Shown here piece after piece: positions 1,550 to 57,527 of a stretch of 64,000 bases of DNA. Source of the stretch: Diphasiastrum complanatum (Eukaryota; Streptophyta; Lycopodiopsida; Lycopodiales; Lycopodiaceae); the NCBI GenBank assembly GCA_029204225.1, contig CM055107.1, positions 2,345,218-2,409,217 of the forward strand. Reading direction: 5' to 3'. How positions within the stretch are numbered: position 1 is the first letter of the stretch; each line of letters opens with the position of its first letter. The notes beneath the pieces were generated by a model. The model was not told the origin of the DNA. It saw only the letters and a list, made by a program, of their open reading frames with translations, and did not search any database. The translations under genes were made by a program, and so were the position numbers.

Positions 1550-3894
1550 CACAAGTATGATCCGTTGTTGATGACTCATCATCCTCTTTTTGAACCACTG
1601 GTTTGATAGTCCAAGTCACAGGATCAACCTTAACTGCACGTTCACGATTTTCAAAAGCGATTTTCCCAGTACCCCAGTTATGAATTACTTGCGCAACTCA
1701 TAACCGTGGGCGTCCCAATAGGACTCGGTAGACATTTGGTGCTTCTGGTAAGTCCATTACTACAAAAGTAATGACAAACTGTACTCCGGCAATTCTGACA
1801 GGTATATCTTCAACCATTCCTTGCGGATCAAGTGTTGTTTGATCAGCTAGCTTAATGGCAAAAGTCGCAGGTTTTATCTTTGTAAGGCCCCATTTTTCAC
1901 ATAGCTTTGTAGAAATCAGGAACCGCCATCTATCACAGCTGCTTCATTAGAAAATTGTCTATGCTGTATCGCCAGGGTGATATTTTTTTGTTCACTTTCC
2001 CAAGCTGCTTCGACATGGAGTACTTCATTAGATTCTTCAAATCCAGCACAAAAAAGTGGCTCCTGATGGACTTTTGGTTCAGGTTGAGTTAACTTTTGCG
2101 CTAATACTTCTTTTGCTTTTGGCACCAACTTCAGGAACTCTCCTAGTGAAATATTGATCTTACTAGATAAAATATTCATGAGCAGTTCTGTTTGCGGTGC
2201 TTCCGGTTCAGTCATCTTGAAGGGTTCTTTATGATGATGCAACTGAGAATTCATATTTGTATGTGAATATTCCGATGACTACAATGGTGAAGAATCTAGC
2301 AGCTTCAAGCTTCTCTTCTTCTTGCAGATGTTTAATCCACTGCCTCATATCCTGATATCTTCTTTTTTCTGCAGAGATTTTGATAGACTCTAGATGCTGT
2401 TAGTATATCAGTTAATGGTAAATATTGGATTTGCTACCAGTTCTTTCTACTTCTGTGCTCTGGTGACCACCATCAAGGGTACACTTGGTTTACTCTGAGC
2501 TACTGGTCTTTACTTGATTGTTATCAAACTTACAAGAGCTATAGCCGGTGGTGGCTTCGGTTTTGCTAGACACTCCTTATAGCAATGTCCATAACCACAG
2601 TCATGACAGAATGGTACAATTTTTTTTTTATTTGGACATTCTGCAACTCTGTGATTTTCTCCACATGTGAAGCATCCAAGTGGTGCTCTGGTCCAGTTTC
2701 TAGATGCTTGTTGCTGCGCGACAACATAAATAGCATATTGGTCTAAAGATCCACCTTCTTGATCATTACCATAGTTCCATTGCTCGGCACTTATATAAGG
2801 TTCTGGTTCCATCAGATTGGTAGAAGGAGCGAGGTGCTTTGGTGGGGCAGGTAAGGCTAATCGTTCCGGGTATCCAAGAGCAGATTGTCGAGGACTAGTT
2901 GTCGAATTTCCTCCATAATGTGGTTTTCGATATCCCATCTGCGCATACCGTTGCTCCGAGGATTGAAATTGCAAAAAGCAGTCTCATGATCAGGCAAATT
3001 ACACAAATGGCATATACTGATTTCCATTCGTTTTTTCAATTGAAGACACTCATTCACTTTGTGATTTCTTGTACAAATAAAACACCAGACATTTTCCCTG
3101 GTAGAAAAAGTCTTTGCAAAATTCTCAGATTCCTTGTTTGCTTGTCCATGAAAATCTTCCAATGCTTTGATCTTCTCATCAAATTGCGATTGTAACTTTT
3201 CCATTTGTTTCTGTTGGTTCTTCTCGAATTTTTCGAACTCATTGAGCATCATTTCTGCAGTAGCGTTGACATTCATTGATGCAATAGTGGTGGATGTCGT
3301 AGTGGTCTACCCTGCTGTATAAGGCAACATATTGATATTTGAATCATCGTCTGAATTTTCATCCTCCTCTCGAATTGCATCATCCATAGCATTTTGCAAA
3401 AGTGTATACTCATTATGGCGTTTCAGCTCACATCTGATCCTTTTAGGTAAACCTGACAAAAATCACATAATCATGACATTTTTGTTAATCAGCTCAGGTT
3501 CACACTCAGATCTGAGGCGTTTTACCCGTTCAATGTAATCTCGAACCATTTCTCACTTTCCCATTTTAATTTTACTTAAAAGTAGGAAAGGGTCTTCCAT
3601 AAACTTCTGAGGTTTGAACCGTGTGATAAGGACTCTTTTAATAGTCTCCCAATCTGTACGCTCAGTTTCATCTTGATTATAGTACCAATCTTGTGCTGCG
3701 TCTATTAAGGCCATAGGAAAAAGCTTAAGTTTATTTTGGGAAAAAATTTTGCCATAGACTTCACAAGATTCAGAATAGATCTGAAAAAATCTAACTGGAT
3801 CTGTTAATCCATTGTATTTGGGTAGATCCAAACAAGATGCTCTTCTAACAATGATTGGATTGACTTCCTGAGGAGCACCTCCAGGGGCAGCCAT
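1550..3894 (-). pseudogene. gypsy A gag-protease remnant
   Basis: The frame opens at 3894 with MAAPGGAPQEVNPIIVRRAS, followed by a retrotransposon gag domain (FFQIYSESCEVYGK, DWYYNQDETERTDWETIKR). A stop follows at about 3553, but homology continues through a coiled-coil stretch (EKFEKNQQKQMEKLQSQFDE). Zinc-knuckle motifs follow: CFICTRNHKVNEC, CHLCNLPDHETAFC and CFTCGENHRVAEC. Frames must be changed near 2970 and again near 2500. The stretch 1916-2254 is the acidic linker ahead of the protease and ends in VIDGGS. The rest of the protease (1550-1915) parallels 9217-9590 of element B. Reverse transcriptase, RNase H and integrase are absent, so A could not have moved by itself in this state. 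Confidence 0.8.
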
Positions 3895-5100
3895 CTTTAC
3901 AGATTAAATCAAGCAGACAATGAGATTGGATCTAGATTTTCAATCAAAATTATCTCAGATTAGATTTGCTAGATCTCTTCCACTTGACAAGAATTAGATT
4001 CCTATATCGTGAAAAATATTCCAAAATTCAACCAATCGATACTTCTCAAAAATGAAAAATCCTCAGAATCAAAATCAGACTGTATCAGATTTGACCCAAA
4101 ATTTGACAGGGACTTGATCTGGAAAATCAGCCTAAAAATAGAACTAGCAAAGGTTCCCTAGGCGAAGATTCACTCAGGGAAGGTTCAACAGTGCTATTTT
4201 TGAAGAAAAAAAAAACTCTCTAATCAGGCTTTTCTGACAAATTCTTCGGAAATAACCTTCGTCGAACTTTCAAACTCAGAATCTGACACTAGATAAGCTA
4301 GGGTAGAATTGACGAAGGTTTCTAGCACACAAAAACACAGTTTCGGTAGTTTGGCGAGGGTAAAAATAAAGATTTTCTATGAACTGGATAGGATGAATGT
4401 TCACCGAACTCAGAAATAGTAACTTACTATAAATAGCATGATTTGGAAACTCGGCGAAGGTTCTAGCGAAGAATAAAGAGTAATACTAGTATTTTCACAA
4501 ATTTGGCAAAAATATGACAATATGACAACTGATCCTCTGAGAAATCTTCTATTTTTTATATAATTCTTTGTCGGTCTGGTAGTAGATAGATCTGAATCAC
4601 ACCTATGCACAGTGAATTGGGCGAAGGTTCTTTTTCTGTATTTTAAAAAATTTGGTGATTTTTTTGTGTTTTTTGATGGTTTTTCTGATGTTTCTGGAAA
4701 TCTGTTGGGAAGGATTGTTCGTCCTTCAAGCTAAATGTTCTGTGATCAAAACCGAAGGTGCCTATACCTCGACAAATGTTTTCTAAAAGAGAAAAAAAAT
4801 TATCAGCTCTGATGACGATTTTTTGCCTCCTTCTGACCAAAATCTGACAGATTTGACCGATTTTTGTTGTTTTTTTTGATATCTCAGATCCAAATGGATA
4901 TTAAGATTGGTGATCTGAATAGCTTTCCCTGTTCCACAATCAGATTAGATTTCAAACAAGCAAATCCACTCAAATCAGGCAAATCACTCCCAAACTAATC
5001 CTAAATGCAGATTTAACACTATTCATGCCACGACAAGATGCCTAATACAAGCTAGCCATCCAACAAACATGCTGCAAACTGAAAAATTGGCGTAGCTCTC
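3895..5100 (-). other. Leader (5' UTR) of gypsy A
   Basis: About 1.2 kb lies between the primer-binding site and gag. It is AT-rich, contains no convincing coding frame, and carries scattered gcgaaggttc-like words (around 4160, 4310, 4450 and 4620). Long leaders are normal in Tat-type gypsy elements. Confidence 0.6.
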
Positions 5101-6974: not shown

Positions 6975-8760
6975 TCAGCTACTGGTTCAACATAGAATAA
7001 CGCAGCATCTAGTAATTCATCATCCACCTCCGTATTAACTGGTGCGGATTCAATTCTTGGAATATGGTCGGCGAGATAATGTTGTTTTCCCTTTCGAACC
7101 ACAGCTCGAAAGTCAAATTCGGTCAATAACAGTAACCATCTTGCAATACGCCCTGTATTACACGTCTTGTTTACCAAGTAAAGTAATGGCTAGTGATCCG
7201 TATAAAATGCAAAGTGCGTTTCCATAAGATAATGTCTAAAATTTTTTACAGAGAAAATAATTGCTAAAGTTCTGTTGTCGAATAGTTTTTCTCTGAATCC
7301 GTAAGTTGTCGGCTTGCAAATCATATTGGATAGTCTTTCTTGTATTCAGTGTGAACATGAAATTCAATCGTCCAATCTGGAGAACACAGTATCGGTGCTG
7401 AAGCTAATGTTTTTTTTAATTTTTCAAAGGCTTCTAATGCCTCAACTGTCCAAATAGAAACAATAGTCAGTTTGTATATAGGTCTTGCAAGATCTGCAAA
7501 GAAGATAATAAAAATTTGATAATAATTCGCATGACCCATAAAGACATATACTCCACAAATTGTTTCTGGCGGTGGTAATTCCACAATGACTTTTATTTTT
7601 GAATAATCTGTTGCAATGCCATGCCTTTATACCACATGCCCAAAAACAACTCCATGAGGAAACCCATATCTGACACTTTTCTAGATTTAAGAAAATTTGG
7701 TACTTGCGACAACGATCAAATACTTTTTCTAGCTGATCCAGGTGGTCTGTATCTGTGTTATGGATTCCAAGGTCATCCAAGTATATTTCAAGGAATTTTT
7801 GTAGATAATCTTTGAAAGCAAACTGCATCACTCTTTGGAATGAACTAGGTGCATTACAGAGTCCAAAAGGCATTACTTTATAGGCATAAGTGCCCCATTC
7901 AGTCGCAAAGGCTGTCTTATGACGATCTGCATATGCAATCTTGACCTGGTTGTATCCACTGAATCCATCCAAGAGACTATAAGCTTCTGCTCCAACAAGG
8001 CGGTCCAAAATACTTTTAGTAAAAGGTAACGAAAAGTGAGACTTTCACGTCACTTTGTTCAAAGCTTTGAGATTCACACAAATTCTCAATTTTCCATTCT
8101 TCTTAGGAACAATGACAATTGGTGAAACCCATTTTGTGTCCTCGATCTCATAAATGGAGTCGGCTTCAAGCAATCTCTATAACTCTTTCTTTATCAAATC
8201 CATAACATTAGGATTACAATCGATAGAATCTTGTGACCTTTGGAACTACATCAGGTATTAAGGGTATGGTATGCTCAGTAACTAATGTCGGAATCCCTTT
8301 GAGATCTTTATAAGTCCACGCAAAGCAATCTTGATACTTAATAAGGAATTTTTGTAGCACTTGAAACTGTTCAGGAGTAAGTTGTGCTCCAACTTGTACA
8401 ATCTTTTCTGATTCTCCTGGTTCTACAAGATTCATAGGCTGCATCCTAGCTGGGCCATCATAAACATCTTTTGATTCTGACACTTGTTCTTCAGGTTCAC
8501 GATGTGCTTTTGGTAACATGAAAACCACATCATCCAGAGTATAACATTTGAAATGCTCTAGCATATCATGCTGGACTTCATCTGATTGTTCTTTGTCAAA
8601 AGGATTAGTCTTGGATCTTCTCTTAGCTTTCTTAGCAGAAATTGATCGTGGAGGCGATGACTTCCAAGAAGATAGACTCCATTTTGAAGGTGAAGACTTC
8701 CTAGATGGTGATATTTTGCTAGAACTTAAACGAATCAATCTTTTGAGGTGTATTTTCTCA
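6975..8760 (-). pseudogene. gypsy B reverse transcriptase and RNase H
   Basis: Several frames together make one reverse transcriptase. 8738-8214 leads into the domain (CFAWTYKDLKGIPTLVTEH, IPLIPDVVPKVTRF). 8008-7442 carries SLLDGFSGYNQVKIA, AFATEWGTYAYKVMPFGLCN and the active-site block EIYLDDLGIH (the Y-x-D-D box). 7584-7321 holds the connection (YKLTIVSIWTVEALEAFEKL). 7177-6947 holds the RNase H end (ARWLLLLTEFDFRAVVRKGK, HYLADHIPRIES). Stops and frameshifts separate each piece. Order and spacing are normal for Ty3/gypsy pol. Confidence 0.85.
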
Positions 8761-8879
8761 TTTTAGGACCGTATTATAATGTTTCTTAGCTTGTTTCTTC
8801 GTCATTGATCTTGTGATCTTGTCTTCCTTCAATATAACTACTTTTGGCGATTTTATTGCTGGTTCATGAGGAATATCAC

Positions 8880-9700
8880 GTACTCCAAATCTGGTAGGAT
8901 CCATGTAATTTAGAACCTATTCATCAATAAGTTCTACATTGTCATCATAAGTCAAGGCATGACTCACATGAATGAGTTCATCTTCAATCGGATTTGGTAC
9001 GAGTTCCGTTGATATCCAAGCTACGTTCAGTACAGTCAATGGAAAAGTGATAGGTGTATCCAAGGTTCGATCAAATAAAGAAATCTCGCTCAAATTGGAT
9101 TGGTTATCTTGTTGACACAGGTATCCTGCTGTACAATCAATTGTTGCAAGAGCTTGATTCCGGTTGACAATATCAGTTTGAGAGTCATAATGAACTCCCC
9201 AATTTTTTACTGGTTGGTCACATGTATGATCCATTGTTGATGAATCATCATCCTCTTTTTGGGCTATTGGTTTGATAGTCCAAGTGATTAGATCAACTTT
9301 GACTGCACGTTCACGATTTTCAAAAATGAATTTTTCGGTACCCCAGTTATGAATTACTTGCACAACACATAACCATGGGCACCCTAGTAGGACTTGGTAG
9401 ACATTTGGTGCATCAGGTAAGTCCATTACTACAAAAGTAATGACAAACTGGACTCCAACAATTTTGACAAGTATGTCTTCAACCATTTCTCATGGACGAA
9501 TTGTCGTTTGATCAGCTAGCTTAATGGAACAAGTCATAGGCTTAATTTTTGTAAGGCCTCATTTTGCACATAGCTTTGTTGAAATCAGGTTAACTCATGA
9601 ACCTCCATCTATCACGGCTGCTTCTTTAGAAAATTGCCTATGTTGTATTGGCAGAGTGATATTTTTTTGCTCACTTTCCCAAGCTGCTCCGACACGGAGT
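8880..9700 (-). pseudogene. gypsy B protease region
   Basis: 9486-8917 reads as the aspartic protease-like C-terminal half (VGVQFVITFVVMDLPDAPN, YQVLLGCPWLCVVQVIHNWG) followed by an acidic spacer. The LLGxPWL motif is usual in plant gypsy proteases. The catalytic half lies upstream in another frame around 9490-9700, where the strand is interrupted by stops. It aligns with 1550-1915 of element A. Confidence 0.7.
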
Positions 9701-26466: not shown

Positions 26467-26524
26467 GTTAGTACTAGAAAGTGTCAAGGCTATAGCCCTT
26501 GCACAATAGTCTAGGAACACAAAT

Positions 26525-26594
26525 GGGTGAATAGCTCAATGGAAGAGCACCCCACCGGAATGGGGGAGGTCCTAGTTCAATCCCTAGCCTCCAA
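26525..26594 (+). other. tRNA-like Pol III domain in the 5' LTR of the TRIM
   Basis: Box A TAGCTCAATGG (26532-26542) and box B AGTTCAATCC (26574-26583) fit the internal Pol III promoter consensus at tRNA-like spacing. The D arm pairs GCTC (26534-26537) with GAGC (26545-26548). An anticodon-type arm pairs CCCCA (26550-26554) with TGGGG (26561-26565) around a six-base loop. The T-loop TTCAATC is intact, but its stem lacks one G. The acceptor stem is poor in this copy. I see a tRNA fold; transcription is inferred. Confidence 0.75.
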
Positions 26595-26625
26595 CCACAC
26601 ACACCAAGTGTAAAAACTTTTCACA

Positions 26626-26638
26626 TGGTATCAAAGGC
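26626..26638 (+). other. Primer-binding site of the TRIM
   Basis: TGGTATCAAAGGC directly after the LTR. It resembles the initiator-methionine site TGGTATCAGAGC with small changes. Confidence 0.8.
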
Positions 26639-26688
26639 ATGGTTGTGGGTGTGGTCTAGGCGGGCGGTAGCTAAAAGGTCTATGCCTT

Positions 26689-26697
26689 GAGGGGGAG
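26689..26697 (+). other. Polypurine tract of the TRIM
   Basis: GAGGGGGAG lies immediately before the second LTR (TGTTAG), as needed for plus-strand DNA priming. Confidence 0.85.
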
Positions 26698-26750
26698 TGT
26701 TAGAAAGTGTCAAGGCTATAGCCCTCGCACAACACTCTAGGAACACAAAT

Positions 26751-26813
26751 GGATGGGTAGCTCAATGGTAGACCGGAATGGAGGAGGTCCTAGGTTTAAT
26801 CCCTAGCCCAACC
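26751..26813 (+). other. tRNA-like Pol III domain in the 3' LTR of the TRIM
   Basis: Acceptor-like GGATGGG (26751-26757) pairs six of seven with CCCAACC (26807-26813). Box A TAGCTCAATGG is at 26758-26768. The T arm is perfect: CTAGG (26790-26794), loop TTTAATC, CCTAG (26802-26806). Box B is GGTTTAATCC. The anticodon arm has lost about nine bases compared with the other LTR. The two LTRs together therefore show every arm of a cloverleaf. Confidence 0.75.
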
Positions 26814-26847
26814 ACACACACCAAGTGTAAGAAATTTTCATAGTTAG

Positions 26848-27935
26848 AACAGAGACATTATTGTGGGAACTACAGGTGTCTACACATATTCTCAGTTGTT
26901 ATCCATGTTGCAACAAGTAGTCATTGCCAAGTTAGCATTGCCAAGTTAGGTGACTCTAATTTTGTCCATATCATGAGTAAAAAGTCGGACGTTGTTTCAG
27001 CTCTACTCAAAGTTACAATATTATAAGATTAATAATATATAATAAATGCTTGAAAGTCAAAAATTACATAAGTACGACTAAAGTAGACAATTACATCCAG
27101 ACTAGTTTTAAAGTAGAGTAAAAAACTATTTACCATTACACTTTTCAGAATGCATATCGGAACACCATCCCTTATCCTAAGTAACAACTTAGAGAAATAT
27201 TTATTGCACTGTCAATTTCAAATGTTAGGGCATAATAGTCCACAAATAAGTATATATAGACTTTAACAGACATGTATAATCCAAGTCATATAACTAAACC
27301 CATCATACCATTTATATTAGAAATAGTCGAGAGTAACGAAAGGTTTAAGCAAAAAGCAGTACACTTCATGTCAAAGTACAATACTTTAGGACCCTAAATG
27401 GATTACACAAGATCCACAAGAGTGATTGGATGTTTGCTAAACAATCTATTGCCAAAACTAGACACAAAAATTGTTCTAGAATAGCAATTTTGCATTTAAC
27501 AAACAAGAACAATCATAAAGCATTGATCAATTATGGAAATACGAGTCCAAACATGTGGTATAGCTTGTGTAAATGGCCTACAAACAGAGAATGGAAGTAA
27601 TATCATTTGATTGCATTTGGATAATCAAAACTCAATACAAATGTGGAGTAGACTCGAGATTGCCAATAAGCTCTAAAAAATAATCTAAATGTTTACTATG
27701 GAGAGTCTACTACATAGAAAAGTCTTTTCCTTTGTAAAGTTAGGTGAATTTCCAACATGTAATAAGGAAGTTGATTTGGCTTTCTTGCCCTAATTTGCCA
27801 TTCTAGCCTCATTCCTAGAGTCATGCCAAGTAGGTGGCTAGTTGGTCAATTTTCTCCATAAATCTAGGATCTAGGTCTTATAAAGTAGGAATCACTACCA
27901 AATTGACTCGACCCACTTTTTAGACTTGATCTAAC
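26848..27935. other. Intergenic, AT-rich; right part may be LTR of copia K
   Basis: No coding frame. The end of copia K's pol lies to the right, and a minus-strand polypurine tract (TTTGAGGAG) precedes TGTGAAAAATTG at 28049. The 3' LTR of K should therefore extend leftwards from 28049 into this stretch. Its far end was not identified. Confidence 0.4.
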
Positions 27936-46513: not shown

Positions 46514-46651
46514 AAATTAAATTGCAATTCTGAATGAAATTGATTCTTGCAATGCTTTCAAATGATTGTTATTTAGCCAAAATAGAGTCTCATTTATGGT
46601 CAAGTAAGTGAAAAGAATAGACATAGTTTGACTTCAATCCCGTTTTTTTGG

Positions 46652-47259
46652 AGATAATGTCGGTGAAGATAGATGTACGGCTTCATGTTCCAAGAAAATT
46701 CTCATTTTTTAACAAATGCTGCAAAGGCAATAAATCACTAAAAACATGTGAGTTAATGAAATCACCACCACAAACTATGACAAAATCAAGTGTTTCATCA
46801 TAGTCAATTTCCTTGTATTGAGCATATCCCTTGGCAACTAGTCTTGATTTATAATTGTTCACACTACCATTTTGATTAAGCTTGATCTTAAAGACCCATT
46901 TGCAAACAGTAACATTTTGTATCTTTGATGGAGGATCAATAATTTTACAAGTATCTCAAACAATGCATCATGTACTCACCTCACTTTTCATTACATCAAA
47001 TCACTCTTTTGTTGCTACAGTTTCATTCACACTTGAAGTAACATCATCAAACTTAAGGTAGTAATAAGGGCAATAAAAATTAAACAATCATCAACTTGTA
47101 ATTGCTTCTCTCCTCTTTGTATTTGAGCCTTGATGGTTGCATTTGGGCTCTGATACCATGTTAAAATCACCTCATTTGGATACTAAAACCTTGAAAAAGC
47201 ATCAAAGGTTTCACTTATATCTAATAGATAGAAAACTAGCACACAATTCAACCTATTTC
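46652..47259 (-). repeat. Left arm of a large inverted repeat: copia J remnant
   Basis: 608 bp, inverted copy of 49446-50052. Minus strand from the right: 101 bp of LTR end (47259-47159), primer-binding site TGGTATCAGAGCCC (47158-47145), then a deleted internal region with a short reverse transcriptase stretch ([37 protein letters not shown], about 46930-46800). Gag and integrase are absent. Confidence 0.8.
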
Positions 47260-49445: not shown

Positions 49446-50052
49446 AAAATAGGTTGAATTGTGTGCTAGTTATCTATCTATTAGATATAAGTGAAACCTT
49501 TGATGCTTTTTCAAGATTTTAGTATCCAAATGAGGTGATTTTAACATGGTATCAGAGCCCAAATGCAACCATCAAGGCTCAAATACAAGGAGGAGAGAAG
49601 CAATTACAAGTTGATGATTGCTTAATTTTTATTGTTCTTATGCCTACCTTAAGTTTGATGATGTTCCTTCAAGTGTGAATGAAACTGTAGCAACAAAAGA
49701 GTGATTTGATGTATTGAAAAGTGAGGTGAGTACATGATGCATTGTTTGAGATACTTGTAAAATTATTGATCCTCCATCAAATAAACAAAATGTTAATTTT
49801 TGCAAATGGGTCTTTAAGATCAAGCTTAATCAAGATGGTAGTGTGAACAATTATAAAACAAGACTAGTTGCCAAGGGATATGCTCAATTCAAGGGGATTG
49901 ACTATGATGAAACACTTGATTTTGTCATAGTTTGTGGTGGTGATTTCATTAACTCACATGTTTTTAGTGATTTATTGCCTTTGCAGCATTTGTTAAAAAA
50001 TGAGAATTTTCTTGGAACATGAAGCCGTACATCTATCTTCACCGACATTATC
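49446..50052 (+). repeat. Right arm of the large inverted repeat: copia J remnant
   Basis: LTR end 49446-49546 (gaggtgattttaaca), primer-binding site TGGTATCAGAGCCC at 49547-49560, then a deleted internal region with [20 protein letters not shown] and [18 protein letters not shown] (about 49800-49910). Same truncated structure as the left arm but in plus orientation, so both arms share the same internal deletions. Confidence 0.8.
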
Positions 50053-50163
50053 TACATACAACTAGTAATTCTTGACATTTACATGATATACTACAATGGC
50101 TATAATTATTCTTTGACATATACTTTCTTTAATAGTGATTGATAGTATCCATTTGTTGGGCAG

Positions 50164-51094: not shown

Positions 51095-51750
51095 TGTGAA
51101 AAATACAGATCCTAAGTGGATCTAAACTCCAAGATCATTGGCTTGAATGCTTGCACTCCAAACTACATAAGCTAGGAATTGGCAACACATTCTATGCTAC
51201 CTAGAATGCAAAGAACTTGATCAAAAAGCATTTATCACAAATGGAAACTTCCATAGACATCAAGTGCGGCCCAAAATAGCATTATACAGTCCATAATACA
51301 TCAGCCTATCACTTTTGGAAAGCACCTAAGATCATACACAATAGCTTGAAGACAATACACACAACAATGCTCTCAATGGAGGAAGAAACAATGACAATGA
51401 TCTATTGATCTCAATGAAGCATACAAAAGGTTTCTCCAACCTGTTCTCCACGACTTCTCTACTATTTATGGATGAGGAAGATGACTCTCTCTCCTCTCTC
51501 TAGAAGGTACTTGACCCTAGATATTCCCTATATAGGAAAAATAGCTAAAAAATGGCTTATATGACCAAAATACATCAAAATGGTCTCATTTTGAAGGGTA
51601 TGAAGTTTGACACTTCATCATACTGAAAAAATACAGTAAATAAAAACATTGTGGCCTGGTTCACACGTGTGAAACTCCAGAACCAAAACTATTTACAATT
51701 TTAGCCAATTTAGGCCTCAAACTAGCTAGGAAATGTTGACAATTTTCACA
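51095..51750 (-). repeat. 3' LTR of copia M
   Basis: 656 bp; minus strand starts TGTGAAAATTGTCAAC and ends TTTTTCACA. The last codons and stop of gag-pol overlap its first five bases. It contains ccctatataggaaaa near 51525, a possible TATA region. Confidence 0.95.
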
Positions 51751-54700
51751 CTCCCTCTTCAACATTGGATGCTAGTTTCAACATAGTCTTTGAGCACATT
51801 CCAAGATTAGATCTATGCATTAAATATAGGTCCTTTCCCAATGGTTTGGTGAAGATATCAGCCACACACTCCTTTGAAGAGACATGTTGAAGCTCCACCT
51901 CTTTGGCAATGACTTGATCTCTCACAAAATGGTGAGCAATCTCAATGTGCTTGCTCCTTGCATGAAAAACAGGATTGCTTGCCAAGCTTTGGGCTGAAAG
52001 GTTATCACAAAGTATGATTGGAGTCTTCTCTGGTTCCAGCAAGTGAATATCCAATAACATCCTCTTGATCCAAAGAATCTCCTTGGTGCATGTTGTTAAT
52101 GCCTTGTACTCGGCTTCGGTGGAAGATAGAGAGATAGTTGGTTGCTTCTTTGATAGCCATGAGACCACTCCATCTCCAAGATAGATTGCAAAGGCACTTG
52201 TTGACTTCCTATCCATTTGATCACCTGCAAAATCTGAATCTGAAAATCCACAAAGGTTAGGTGTAGTACCTCCATACAAGATGCCAAAATCTCTAGATCC
52301 CGAGATGTATCTAAGTACTCTCTTTCCTAGCTTCCAATGAGCCTCACTAGGATCTTGCATAAATTGACTTAGTTTACCAACCACAAAGCTTAGATCAGGT
52401 CTTGTGATGGTTAACCATATAAGAGATCCTATTAGCTTTCTATAGAGAGTAATGTCCTTGAAGGATCTTTCATTACTTCTTGTAGTTAGCTTTACATTTG
52501 ATTCCATAGGAGTAGAAACAACTTTACAATCTTCCATATGAAACCTTTTTAGAATAGAGTTAACATACTTTTCTTGACATATGAATGTAGATTTAGAAGT
52601 TCTAATAATCTCTATTCCTAAGATATAATGAAGTTTACCAAGATCTTGAATTTCAAACTCTCTTTTGAGTGCCATCTTGATTTCATCTATATCTAGATTG
52701 TTACCACCACTTAAGATAATGTCATCAACATAGATCAAAAGTAAAGTGATATCATTTTCATTCAATCTAAAGTAGAGAGAATGATCATACTCACTCATAA
52801 CAAAGTTTTGAGAAAGTAAGAAGGAATTGAGCTTAGCATACCAACTCCTTGGTGCTTGCTTTAGCCCATACAAACTCTTTTGGAGATAGCACACATGATT
52901 AGGCTCATCATGTGAAACATAGCCCTCGGGTTGCTCCATGTAAATATCTTCTTCAAGATCACCATTCAAGAAGGCATTAGTAACATCCATTTGCCACATA
53001 TCCCAATCATAAAGAGTTGCAAGAGAGATTAGGATTCGAATAGTTACCATCTTTGCCACGGGTGCAAAGGTCTCATCATAGTCAATACCATATTCTTGAG
53101 CATACCCCTTTGCCACCAACCTTGCCTTGTACTTGTTGATTGATCCATCTTGATTTGTCTTGATCTTGAAGATCCACTTACAACCAATTGCCTTCTTGTC
53201 CTTTGGAAGCTTTACCAACCTCCATGTGTTGCTTTTGATGAGTGCTTGATGCTCATGATCCATGGCTTGGATCCATTCCTTCTTTTGAATTGCTTCACCT
53301 ACACAAGTTGGTTCATCAAAAGAGGTAAGAAAAGCAAAGTTAGAGTTGTCCACCACTTGCTTTCCTTTTTCATCATAGGTTAGCCTTGATGGCTTAGCCC
53401 TTTGCCTTTGAGTCTTCCTTGAAGTTTGCTTTGGAGTGGCATCTCCATCTTCATCCAAGACATCTTGCACATCATGATGATTAGTAGGCACATCAACATC
53501 AACATCAACAACATTGGAAACATTCTCTTCATGAAAGATGACATCTTTACTTATGACAACTTTCTTTGTAGAAGGAATGTACACTTTGTAAGCCTTGCTT
53601 ACTTCACTATAGCCAACAAACACACCCTTCTTTAATGAAGGATCTTCTTTAGTTCTATCATCAAGTGTGATATTGACAAAACATGTACATCCAAAGATCC
53701 TACAATGCTTGACACTCGGCCTTCTACCATAAAGAACCTCATGAGGAGTTTTACCATCCAAGGAAGCACTTGTCCATCTATTACATAGATAGTTAGCACA
53801 TGCTAAAGCTTCCCCCCAAAAAGACTTAGCAAGATTAGCATGTAGTCTCATTGCCTTGGCACATTCACAAAGGGTTCTATTCTTCCTCTCGGCCACTCCA
53901 TTCTGTTGTGGAGTCCTAGGACTAGACATCTCCCTCTTAATCCCATGTGCTATACAAAAGTCTTTGAACCTATTTGAGGTGTATTCCCCTCCATTATCAG
54001 ATCTTAAGCATTTGATCTTTGTATTGAATTGGTTTTCCATTTCATTCTTGAACTTGACAAATGCAGCAAACACTTCATCCTTACTTTTAAGAAGATAGAT
54101 CCAAGTATACCTACTAAAGTCATCAATGAAAGTTGCATACATCTTTGCCCCACCATTGCTAGTTGTACTAGAAGAATGAATATCAGAATGCACAAGTTGA
54201 AAAGCTTCTTTAGATCTAGAAGTAGATCTAGAATAAGCAAGTCTATGAGATTTGGACAAGGCACAATGTTCACAAACACTATTGTTTGCAACAAGACTTT
54301 TAGGGAGACCAAGAACAAGCTCTTTCTTTGCCATTACCTCCAAAGATTTGAAGTTGGGATGGCCCAACCTCTTGTGCCAAACTTCTTGGTTTGTCAATTG
54401 CTCCCTAGCCATACATCCTTCATGATTAGAGATCACACATGCATCAAGCTTGAAAAGTTTACCATGCCTCCTACCTTGAGCAATCAAGGATCCACATTTA
54501 CTTATCAAACATGCATCTCCAATGAACTCCACATCAAGTCCTTTGTCAATCATTTGACTTACACTAAGCAAATTCTTAGTGATTGAAGGAATGTACAAAA
54601 CATTTTCAAGATTTGCTTTCCTATTTGTTGAAAGGGAAATAGGAATAGTGCCTATGCCTTTGATGTCACATTGACCATCATTTGCAGTGTAGATGATGTT

Positions 54701-55699
54701 ACCTTCTCCCTCATAAGACAATAAGGATGTACAGTATTCCTTATGTCTTGTCATGTGAGATGAGGCTCCACTATCAATCCACCAAGGATCATTATAATCT
54801 ATGTTGGCTAACAAACTTGAAGTCATAACAAGTGATTCACATGTGTTATGTTCTTCCTCATCTATTGTAAGATTTCCTTGCCTCTCTCCTTGCTCTCTTT
54901 TCTTCTTATAACATTCATTTGCAAAATGACCTTTTATCCCACAATAAAAGCACTTGAACTTTGACTTATTGTTCTTAGTAGAAGAGGAAGAGGAAGAGTG
55001 ATCATCATGATCAAAGTTACCACCTTTGGACCATTTCCCTTTGCCTTTACCTTTGCCCTTGAATTTGCCTTTTGTGAAGAAAGCCTCTTCACCTCCACCT
55101 TGCAAGGATGCACCATCAAGCTTTGATTGCAACCTATGTTCTTCAGCCAATAAGATTTCTTGCAAGTCAACCACACTTGGCAAGACTCTTTGAATGACAA
55201 AACTTTGCACAAGGTTAGCATGTTCATTTAGCAAACCATTCAACATAACTTGGACTATTTCACCATCTTTTATGTTCTCATCAATGCATGCTAAATCATC
55301 ACTTAGGGACTTAACTCTCAAGATAAATGCATGAGCACTTTCACCCTCTCTTTGCCTACTAGAAAATATTTGTCTCCTTAGGGTCAATACCCTAGATGTG
55401 GACTTTGATTCAAAGAGCTTCTTTAAGGCATTCCATGCCTCACTTGCACTTTGACACTTTCCAACTTCCTTGAGAAGTTCATTTGTAACATTCATTTTAA
55501 TGATATGAAGAGCCCTTTTGGCCTTCTTATCAAACCTTTGTTGCTCTTGAAGTGTGAGAGGTCTCTCTTCAATTTCTGCAACTATGTCCATGAGTTCATT
55601 CAACTCAAGTAAGGACTCCATCCTCACTTTCCAAGTAGAGTAGTTTGATGAACTCAACCTTTCACTAGACTCTAGCATGATCCCACCATTGGAAGCCAT
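51746..55699 (-). CDS. Copia M gag-pol polyprotein, complete (1317 aa)
   Basis: One frame from MASNGGIMLESSERLSSSNY to VEEGV. Order with rough residues: UBN2-type gag 1-200; basic GKGKGK stretch about 210-225; zinc knuckle CFYCGIKGHFANEC about 249-262; protease DSGA about 306; pre-integrase HKRLGHPN about 441; integrase core D about 503 (VHSDIHSSS), D about 565 (RSDNGGEY), E about 605 (PQQNGVAERKNR); reverse transcriptase about 810-1055 with YVDDI about 988; RNase H about 1150-1285 (DSDFAGD, SSTEAEY, ADIFTKPLGKDL). Every catalytic residue expected for copia is present and no stop interrupts it. Gag and pol share one frame, as is usual for plant copia, so their ratio must be set after transcription. 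The start is the first methionine before the gag domain. Confidence 0.95.
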   Translation of the reverse strand: MASNGGIMLESSERLSSSNYSTWKVRMESLLELNELMDIVAEIEERPLTLQEQQRFDKKAKRALHIIKMNVTNELLKEVGKCQSASEAWNALKKLFESKSTSRVLTLRRQIFSSRQREGESAHAFILRVKSLSDDLACIDENIKDGEIVQVMLNGLLNEHANLVQSFVIQRVLPSVVDLQEILLAEEHRLQSKLDGASLQGGGEEAFFTKGKFKGKGKGKGKWSKGGNFDHDDHSSSSSSTKNNKSKFKCFYCGIKGHFANECYKKKREQGERQGNLTIDEEEHNTCESLVMTSSLLANIDYNDPWWIDSGASSHMTRHKEYCTSLLSYEGEGNIIYTANDGQCDIKGIGTIPISLSTNRKANLENVLYIPSITKNLLSVSQMIDKGLDVEFIGDACLISKCGSLIAQGRRHGKLFKLDACVISNHEGCMAREQLTNQEVWHKRLGHPNFKSLEVMAKKELVLGLPKSLVANNSVCEHCALSKSHRLAYSRSTSRSKEAFQLVHSDIHSSSTTSNGGAKMYATFIDDFSRYTWIYLLKSKDEVFAAFVKFKNEMENQFNTKIKCLRSDNGGEYTSNRFKDFCIAHGIKREMSSPRTPQQNGVAERKNRTLCECAKAMRLHANLAKSFWGEALACANYLCNRWTSASLDGKTPHEVLYGRRPSVKHCRIFGCTCFVNITLDDRTKEDPSLKKGVFVGYSEVSKAYKVYIPSTKKVVISKDVIFHEENVSNVVDVDVDVPTNHHDVQDVLDEDGDATPKQTSRKTQRQRAKPSRLTYDEKGKQVVDNSNFAFLTSFDEPTCVGEAIQKKEWIQAMDHEHQALIKSNTWRLVKLPKDKKAIGCKWIFKIKTNQDGSINKYKARLVAKGYAQEYGIDYDETFAPVAKMVTIRILISLATLYDWDMWQMDVTNAFLNGDLEEDIYMEQPEGYVSHDEPNHVCYLQKSLYGLKQAPRSWYAKLNSFLLSQNFVMSEYDHSLYFRLNENDITLLLIYVDDIILSGGNNLDIDEIKMALKREFEIQDLGKLHYILGIEIIRTSKSTFICQEKYVNSILKRFHMEDCKVVSTPMESNVKLTTRSNERSFKDITLYRKLIGSLIWLTITRPDLSFVVGKLSQFMQDPSEAHWKLGKRVLRYISGSRDFGILYGGTTPNLCGFSDSDFAGDQMDRKSTSAFAIYLGDGVVSWLSKKQPTISLSSTEAEYKALTTCTKEILWIKRMLLDIHLLEPEKTPIILCDNLSAQSLASNPVFHARSKHIEIAHHFVRDQVIAKEVELQHVSSKECVADIFTKPLGKDLYLMHRSNLGMCSKTMLKLASNVEEGV
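51751..51763 (-). other. Polypurine tract of copia M
   Basis: Minus strand TTGAAGAGGGAG directly before the LTR. It also encodes the final residues (VEEGV) of gag-pol, a tight overlap of coding and replication signals. Confidence 0.9.
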
Positions 55700-56859
55700 G
55701 ATTCTAATGTTTCTTCAACTTTTAGGTTCTGTCCTAAAGCACTTAGCACTCACTTTTCTCTCAACAAATGATAGATAAAGAGATCTATGAAGATTTAGGA
55801 CCCTAAAACACTTCTATCTTGAACCTAGATGGTTTCCAAGCATAGAAAGGAAGATTGAAACACATGCAACACTTTGCACACACTAAGAATGGATTACAAA
55901 ATCAAACCAACCTGAACACACTCTTGCTTAAGCTCTCAAACTTTCCAGCAAGTGACCAAATCAAGTTATGGTGTGAAGAGTTACTTGCATTCTTAGAAAA
56001 TACCCAAAACTAGGATGCCAAGATTACCTAGTAATGAACAAACTTGATCAACATATGATCAACACACTAAGATATTGATTCAACCTGTAAAACCACATGT
56101 AAACCACACTTCTAAAAGTTTATAAACTCCAGCAAGTGATAAATACAAGATTTAGAGGTGAATGAATGAGCACACTTAGTGAATCACAAGACTAGCTTCA
56201 CTATCTTGTCAAATCTTGGTGTTTAGATGTAGATCTAAGATCACTTCACATGAGAATGTTCCTCAACCTGTTAAGAACCTGAAAACACACTTGCATAATG
56301 GTTAACACCTTCCAGCAAATGCTCCAATCAAATTACATAAGGAGAGTTACTTACATGCTCAACAAAGTACACCAAAATTTATGCCAAAATTGATGACAAT
56401 CTTTACAATATGCTCTTCACAATGGAGCTTGCAATATGTTCACCCAAAAAAGGGGATCTTTCATCAAAATGGGAGCTTTGCTCAGCCTTTAGGAGAATTA
56501 CAACTCACTCAAAAGAGCATTTGTCATCCACTTAAGGAGAAGTTTCATCCACTTAAGGAGAGTGTTCATCCAAGAATGGAGATTGTCAACAATAGGATTG
56601 AAAAGAACATTGTTAGTATTGAATATGCACAAGCCTCACAATCACAAATGATTAGGTGTTATGATCTGATCCAAAATAGTTTCTTTTCAGCCTCTGATCT
56701 TCAATAGACCTGAAATATGCTTTTGATCCACAAGTTCAACTCACAAAACAAAGGTTAGTAAGATTTGATCAACAAAGCAATGCAAAATCATGCTAGAACT
56801 TGATCAAACATCCAAATATCACCAAAAATGGAATACTTACTGTAAATAGAAGCCAACCA
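55700..56859 (-). other. Leader of copia M
   Basis: 1.16 kb between primer-binding site and gag. It contains imperfect repeats (ccagcaagtga and ccagcaaatgct words near 55950, 56133 and 56320; catccacttaaggagaa near 56530-56570). A 108-codon frame on the opposite strand (56381-56707) is made largely of these repeats and has no domain. Confidence 0.7.
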
Positions 56860-56871
56860 GTTCTGATACCA
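56860..56871 (-). other. Primer-binding site of copia M
   Basis: Minus strand TGGTATCAGAAC immediately after the LTR, matching the initiator methionine tRNA type with one change from TGGTATCAGAGC. Confidence 0.9.
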
Positions 56872-57527
56872 TGTGAAAAATACAGATCCTAAGTGGATCT
56901 AAACTCCAAGATCATTGGCTTGAATGCTTGCACTCCAAACTACATAAGCTAGGAATTGGCAACACATTCTATGCTACCTAGAATGCAAAGAACTTGATCA
57001 AAAAGCATTTATCACAAATGGAAACTTCCATAGACATCAAGTGCGGCCCAAAATAGCATTATACAGTCCATAATACATCAGCCTATCACTTTTGGAAAGC
57101 ACCTAAGATCATACACAATAGCTTGAAGACAATACACACAACAATGCTCTCAATGGAGGAAGAAACAATGACAATGATCTATTGATCTCAATGAAGCATA
57201 CAAAAGGTTTCTCCAACCTGTTCTCCACGACTTCTCTACTATTTATGGATGAGGAAGATGACTCTCTCTCCTCTCTCTAGAAGGTACTTGACCCTAGATA
57301 TTCCCTATATAGGAAAAATAGCTAAAAAATGGCTTATATGACCAAAATACATCAAAATGGTCTCATTTTGAAGGGTATGAAGTTTGACACTTCATCATAC
57401 TGAAAAAATACAGTAAATAAAAACATTGTGGCCTGGTTCACACGTGTGAAACTCCAGAACCAAAACTATTTACAATTTTAGCCAATTTAGGCCTCAAACT
57501 AGCTAGGAAATGTTGACAATTTTCACA
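56872..57527 (-). repeat. 5' LTR of copia M
   Basis: 656 bp, the same by eye as 51095-51750. It would carry the promoter for the full-length RNA. Confidence 0.95.

Follow-up and report, generated by a model that had tools for sequence, protein, structure and literature searches.

A 371-bp retroelement in the genome of the lycophyte Diphasiastrum complanatum is an old, decayed copy of an abundant family of miniature LTR retrotransposons (TRIMs), family A, with tRNA-like sequence in both LTRs. A second, diverged TRIM family (family B) is present in the same genome. Elements of this kind have already been described as Helenus; what is new here are families A and B, together with one composite that joins a Copia element to a TRIM. 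We think it likely that these are Helenus-type TRIMs that carry a Pol III promoter in the LTR and are moved in trans by Copia.

Helenus was named in 2024 for TRIMs with tRNA-derived LTR sequence in fungi, animals and one plant, and was grouped with Cassandra and Ajax under the name TRIMp3 (Kojima 2024, Biology 13:119, PMC10886601). A preliminary description of the element had interpreted it as a TRIM counterpart of Cassandra in which a tRNA replaces the 5S gene, and this part of its interpretation stands. It knew of no described tRNA-bearing family, but both Helenus and its umbrella group were already in print (PMC10886601), and the Pol III transcription that it assumed stands as a prediction from promoter anatomy.

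The window element and family A

The element lies at 26472–26842 of the window, by which we mean the whole stretch of 64,000 nt that was analyzed (contig CM055107.1). With tRNA-like sequence in both LTRs, a primer-binding site (PBS), a polypurine tract (PPT) and a perfect GTTAG target-site duplication (TSD) on both sides, the element is as originally reported, and its parts across 26467–26847 are as follows:

26467..26471 (+): 5′ TSD GTTAG, from the sequence and the TSD test
26472..26625 (+): 5′ LTR, 154 bp (153 bp in most family-A copies)
26491..26494 (+): TATA of the 5′ LTR, at position -34 relative to where the tRNA-like sequence begins
26525..26597 (+): tRNA-like sequence of the 5′ LTR, with damaged T arm
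26532..26542 (+): box A, TAGCTCAATGG
26618..26621 (+): T4 run close to the 5′ LTR end, a possible Pol III terminator
26626..26638 (+): PBS, TGGTATCAAAGGC in the window copy as against TGGTATCAGAGCC in most copies
26626..26697 (+): interior, 72 bp, starting TGGTATCA and ending GAGGGGGAG
26689..26697 (+): PPT, GAGGGGGAG
26698..26842 (+): 3′ LTR, 145 bp
26717..26720 (+): TATA of the 3′ LTR, at position -34 relative to where the tRNA-like sequence begins
26751..26814 (+): tRNA-like sequence of the 3′ LTR, minus 8 nt of the anticodon arm; RF00005, 31.1 bits
26835..26838 (+): T4 run of the 3′ LTR
26843..26847 (+): 3′ TSD GTTAG, from the sequence and the TSD test

Neither tRNA-like stretch is whole, in line with the earlier account of different arms surviving on each side: one base is missing from the T arm (box B) of the 5′ stretch, and 8 bases are missing from the anticodon arm of the 3′ stretch. 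ARAGORN called no tRNA in the window, and an Rfam scan of the entire window at the gathering threshold returned no tRNA match; in a smaller scan the 3′ copy exceeded the RF00005 cut-off of 29 bits, with the 5′ copy absent from the list, and neither copy folded into a cloverleaf. Given that its LTR pair diverges by 9.7% over aligned sites, compared to a median of 2.6% for family-A LTR pairs (28 elements, window copy included), we regard the window element as a decayed family member.

Searching the genome with the window element (1.74 Gb in 5176 contigs; best 40 of 578 candidates scored), a step that the preliminary description had suggested, yielded at least 48 matches. Our working set of 40 loci (L001, L009–L047) includes seven groups of segmental or assembly duplicates, and setting aside 9 duplicate rows and the multi-LTR loci L013, L027 and L038 leaves 28 distinct two-LTR elements. 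These measure 371–381 bp (374–381 bp without the window copy), with an LTR of about 153 bp that reads TGTTAG...CACA in most copies and an interior of about 73 bp that in most copies runs from TGGTATCAGAGCC to GAGGGGGAG. At the predicted boundaries, an exact 5-bp TSD flanks 16 of the 28, with 4 of 5 positions matching in three more and 3 or fewer in the remaining nine. Among the multi-LTR loci, L027 consists of a tandem array whose nine LTR matches include a single partial one. The genome matches and the exact TSDs show that the window element is not a chance arrangement, and a chance repeat is likewise ruled out by the interior-sampled and tRNA-block loci described below.

Several further repeats were seen beside family-A copies. 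The left flank of L030 appears by eye to hold another very small TRIM in reverse orientation, with an interior of about 36 bp between PBS and PPT. The right flank of L014 and the left flank of L019 share a repeat starting TGGTATCATGTGAAAG, in opposite orientation and adjoining the family-A copies, and a relative of this repeat was recognized by eye at about 27380–27440 of the window.

The tRNA-like block in families A and B

A tRNA covariance model, another of the checks initially proposed, matched family A throughout: RF00005 exceeded its cut-off in all 31 loci scanned, with a best score of 61.4 bits, and the better copies hold a near-complete tRNA in both LTRs. ARAGORN called at least one tRNA in 36 of the 40 loci, with none in L001, L035, L038 and L044. 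Three good copies were folded; two took a cloverleaf as their minimum-energy structure, and the folding energies of all three were no better than those of shuffled sequences (z -0.5 to -0.9). Of the 56 family-A LTRs, 51 have C at position 33, four have U and one has A. With U33 thus absent from 52 LTRs, the block is probably not a working tRNA, and we set aside a functional tRNA as unlikely.

To sample copies through a part of the element outside the tRNA-like block, we searched with a 79-base PBS-to-PPT query (best 40 of 475 candidates scored; at least 41 matches). Seven matches inside loci of the first set were set aside and 32 loci examined, of which 8 were supplied and 24 fetched (L048 and L051 repeat L023 and L033). 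In the flanking LTR, at least 65 of 72 tRNA nucleotides were present at 28 loci and a partial block at four, with none lacking it; where both outer LTR ends were available (n = 10), an exact TSD was found in six. This search, which covered best-scoring candidates only, was our route to copies without the tRNA block, and may miss old ones. Conversely, a search with the tRNA block (best 40 of 869 candidates scored) gave 40 places, 18 of them in earlier sets, and in all 22 examined the block was set within LTR sequence. The preliminary description had named two outcomes that would undermine it, namely a SINE inserted in only some LTRs, or an absence of other copies with LTR, PBS and PPT. Neither was seen in the sampled copies: a family of such copies exists, and since tRNA-like sequence lies in the flanking LTR at 32 of 32 interior-sampled loci, it is integral to the LTR rather than a SINE present in a few copies.

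Family B, first seen in L084 and L099, was characterized at 20 loci (best 40 of 1248 candidates scored). Its LTR measures 144 bp and its interior 116 bp, for a total length of 404–406 bp. Two LTRs are present at 12 of the 20 loci, with a median divergence of 2.1%, and nine of these 12 have an exact TSD; in the exceptions, L125 matches at 4 of 5 positions and L130 and L132 show no match. A PBS and a PPT lie between the LTRs in both families. Of the 20 loci in the family-B set, 16 were scanned with RF00005 and all gave a match above its cut-off, the match in L119 being a family-A copy. A degraded family-B relative at 2330–2600 of L135, with a weak tRNA match of 31.6 bits, is possibly a third, older family.

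Comparison of one LTR from each family indicates that the tRNA-like block is their best-shared part. The blocks share the same base at 61 of 71 aligned positions (z 13.9 relative to shuffles), compared to z 3.0 for the upstream LTR and z 1.1 for the LTR tail; the interiors align at z 7.7, or z 2.9 without PBS and PPT. This contrast fits selection on the tRNA-like block, and a rival account of its identity is that one family later acquired the block from the other. Within family A there is no sign of purifying selection: LTR pairs differ by 4.2% in the block compared to 2.8% and 2.4% in its flanks, so the block is no better kept than its surroundings.

Over 20 distinct A and B blocks, cloverleaf pairing holds in 87.9% of cells, compared to at most 53.6% in slid controls. 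Pair 7–66 is A-U in family B and G-C in family A, and two-sided changes occur in two pairs (9 cells and 1 cell). We dropped covariation as evidence, since 215 of 500 shuffles reach the same number of pairs and a slide of -3 reproduces both pairs and all ten cells.

Promoter anatomy and competing explanations

In family A, the LTRs resemble a plant tRNA transcription unit, with TATA near -34, CAA near -5, boxes A and B, and a T4 run downstream. Among the 56 LTRs of the 28 elements, TATA occurs at -36 to -25 in 55, CAA at -10 to -2 in 46, box A in 53, a strict box B in 47 and T4 after the tRNA in 54; both boxes, which the preliminary description had noted in the window LTRs, are found together in 44. 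As the copies are related, the 55 LTRs with TATA amount to a single observation. When one upstream region was dinucleotide-shuffled, TATA fell within its interval in 1.1% of cases, CAA in 32% and both in 0.4%. Among angiosperm tRNA genes, 22–32% have TATA within 50 nt, 36–45% have CAA within 10 nt and 67–72% have a T stretch (PMC11700998).

The internal boxes and CAA are common to both families. TATA and the terminator are not general, since the 35 family-B LTRs (counted without L119 and the fourth match of L135) show box A in 35, box B in 29 and CAA in 34, with an upstream TATA in one and an LTR T4 in none. The T4 run of family A sits about 20 nt past the tRNA and ahead of the PBS, where a share of any Pol III transcripts would end prematurely; if it is efficient, Pol III RNA would fall short of the PBS in this family. 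The lack of T4 between the LTR ends does not count in favor of Pol III, as 94% of dinucleotide shuffles lack it as well.

From this promoter anatomy we infer Pol III transcription of family-A and family-B elements, and propose the following route. TFIIIC would bind boxes A and B in the 5′ LTR, and Pol III would start near the CAA at -5 inside that LTR. Some transcripts would read through the weak T4 at its end and finish in or beyond the 3′ LTR, yielding a terminally redundant RNA. Reverse transcription would be primed at TGGTATCAGAGCC by a tRNA that we take to be initiator-Met tRNA, with Copia reverse transcriptase and integrase acting in trans, the PPT priming the plus strand and integration giving the 5-bp TSD. 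The tRNA-like block would thereby serve as a promoter and not as a working tRNA. Cassandra offers a precedent, with an RNA that initiates within the 5′-LTR 5S and terminates within the 3′-LTR 5S (PMC10886601).

An unlikely but still serious competitor is that Pol II makes the genomic RNA from an unrecognized LTR promoter, leaving the tRNA-like block to produce a separate short Pol III RNA (about 100 nt, to the T4) or to act as a TFIIIC-binding boundary. The position of T4 between tRNA and PBS in 54 of 56 family-A LTRs is what such a division of labor predicts, the TATAG of the upstream LTR could serve Pol II, and a 2008 PNAS paper on Cassandra, by its title, reportedly concerns an independently transcribed 5S RNA. 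This explanation fits less well with the absence of an AATAAA-like signal from the two elements checked, and with family B, where T4 is found in 0 of 35 LTRs and upstream TATA is missing from 34, yet box A is kept in all 35 and box B in 29.

We consider it quite improbable that the block is a passive relic, a SINE or tRNA once inserted into an LTR and now a functionless passenger. A SINE insertion has been proposed as the origin of such sequence (Kojima 2024, PMC10886601), and the replacement of U33 by C in 51 of 56 family-A LTRs (U being kept in four), as well as the higher LTR-pair divergence of the block relative to its flanks, would suit a passenger. However, no other part is nearly as well kept between the two families, boxes A and B persist in most copies of both, and cloverleaf pairing far exceeds that of the slid controls. 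The chance that we are dealing with an independent tRNA-derived SINE family that merely resembles an LTR element is negligible: a tRNA head with boxes A and B is expected of a SINE, but LTR pairs, PBS, PPT, 5-bp TSDs and tandem LTR–interior arrays are not, and 0 of 22 tRNA-block loci lay outside LTR sequence, which refutes a SINE for the copies sampled.

Copia composites and known relatives

For mobilization by Copia, a component of the promoter-in-LTR reading that we favor, the clearest evidence comes from a single locus, L112, the one composite with a testable single TSD. Its parts follow in the order Copia LTR, Copia interior, Copia LTR, TRIM interior, TRIM LTR, with the joint falling exactly at the PBS (TTTGACA, then TGGTATCAGAGCC), and ATACT stands on both outer sides of the whole 6-kb unit as a single 5-bp TSD; a 5-base match at a fixed place has a chance of about 1 in 1000. 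Because the joint lies at the PBS inside one ATACT duplication, we read L112 as a single insertion, and it provides strong evidence for one shared reverse-transcription and integration event of a Ty1/copia element and a TRIM. The simplest route would be a template switch between two RNAs that share a PBS, followed by one integration. The Copia PBS of L112 itself is altered (TGGTATTCGAGCC); TGGTATCAGAGCC is found in L118, a relative whose LTR end is 97% similar. L118 matches Retrotran_gag_2, Pol_BBD and RVT_2, with integrase at 32.0 bits, just below the cut-off of 32.6.

Further fusions were also seen. In the family-B loci L126 and L138, the sequence joined at the PBS is 81% like the apparent LTR of a second element, Copia W (in L114); their upstream 1.5 kb are 95% identical and their 3′ flanks different. 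In L128, also of family B, the fused sequence is 89% similar to Copia W interior sequence and integrase-like by eye. L082, L091 and L092 share upstream sequence that is 98–99% identical and may represent a single event, and no second copy of the L092 upstream sequence was found in the 6.4 kb upstream of L092 (L113). We did not count L095, which belongs to a longer-LTR variant and is not a foreign-LTR fusion; L081, L096, L098 and L060 are cut down or otherwise rearranged. Together, the L112 composite and the further fusions favor Copia as the mobilizer, and a larger Copia element probably moves the TRIM.

Other Copia-like and repeated sequences were noted in passing. At L060, a family-A 5′ LTR reduced to its last bases is joined to sequence resembling a Copia reverse-transcriptase region in the window. 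In L114 (locus reversed), a longer variant has a repeat of about 510 bp that opens with the tRNA-bearing LTR, closes with TGACA and is followed by the same interior; this entire 1.2-kb block is present twice, at about 2867–4052 and 7792–8987, 4.9 kb apart. On the minus strand of the window, 51095–57527 holds a Ty1/copia element whose LTRs are 100% identical over 656 bp, with a GACTT TSD on both sides and one 1322-aa open frame with gag, integrase and RVT_2 domains, and it looks like a very recent insertion. A 610-bp inverted repeat, 96.7% identical, at 46649–47258 and 49447–50056 of the window, carries an outward TGGTATCAGAGCC in each copy, perhaps as two head-to-head LTRs around some 2.2 kb.

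Set against published elements, both families match Helenus and TRIMp3: they are non-coding, shorter than 1000 bp and bounded by two LTRs, with tRNA-derived LTR sequence, PBS and PPT, conserved boxes A and B, and 5-bp TSDs, a length that Helenus shows in plants and fungi (PMC10886601). As published, Helenus was suggested to use Copia as a helper in fungi and its tRNA was judged unlikely to be functional (PMC10886601); a Copia helper and a non-working tRNA are the probable readings here as well. The sole plant family in that account, Helenus-1_SMo of Selaginella moellendorffii, has an LTR of 120 bp and an interior of 85 bp (PMC10886601), and these published dimensions set it apart from families A (153 and 73 bp) and B (144 and 116 bp). 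Helpers were there proposed from the PBS and interior similarity (PMC10886601), whereas here one locus appears to be a joint Copia–TRIM insertion. Among open-licence PMC papers, literature searches returned only Kojima 2024 and a 2026 meeting report for Helenus retrotransposons, and nothing relevant beyond Kojima 2024 for TRIMp3.

Cassandra is similar in having a Pol III gene in the LTR, the PBS TGGTATCAGAGC and tandem LTR–interior arrays (PMC7215508, PMC10853983), but carries 5S where these families carry tRNA-like sequence; a 5S model (RF00001) found no match in 31 family-A loci at E-values up to 1. Ajax, another TRIM whose LTR holds a Pol III promoter, has a partial 5S and is reported from two nemerteans only (Kojima 2024, PMC10886601). 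Plant TRIMs and tandemly arrayed TRIMs agree in size, structure and arrays such as L027, in an article whose main text does not contain the word tRNA (Gao 2016, PMC4717578). Retrozymes are also non-autonomous plant retrotransposons with LTRs unlike those of canonical elements, but they reportedly carry a hammerhead ribozyme (PMC4918200). Lastly, tRNA-derived SINEs have no LTRs, PBS or PPT and insert in LINE fashion, unlike the two families, with their LTRs, PBS, PPT and TSD.

If these assignments hold, the D. complanatum families put Helenus in a second lycophyte order. A reading as the first Helenus of a seed plant was abandoned on the strength of the 5S gene, whose ends differ from those of flowering plants and come closer to those of spore-bearing plants. 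Described LTR elements that have a Pol III promoter are few, and two abundant Helenus families that share the tRNA block best strengthen the case for a captured small-RNA gene as promoter; such elements can also inflate predicted tRNA gene counts, as noted for rust fungi (PMC10886601). We tentatively raise the possibility that Pol III-made Helenus RNA is co-packaged with Pol II-made Copia RNA, and that composites joined at the PBS record template switching between the two. If true, composites would be traces by which each family's helper can be identified, Copia X in family A and Copia W in family B; helper identity is a point left open for Cassandra. More broadly, they suggest that the helper of a TRIM may be found from the genome alone, through foreign LTRs fused at the PBS within one TSD.
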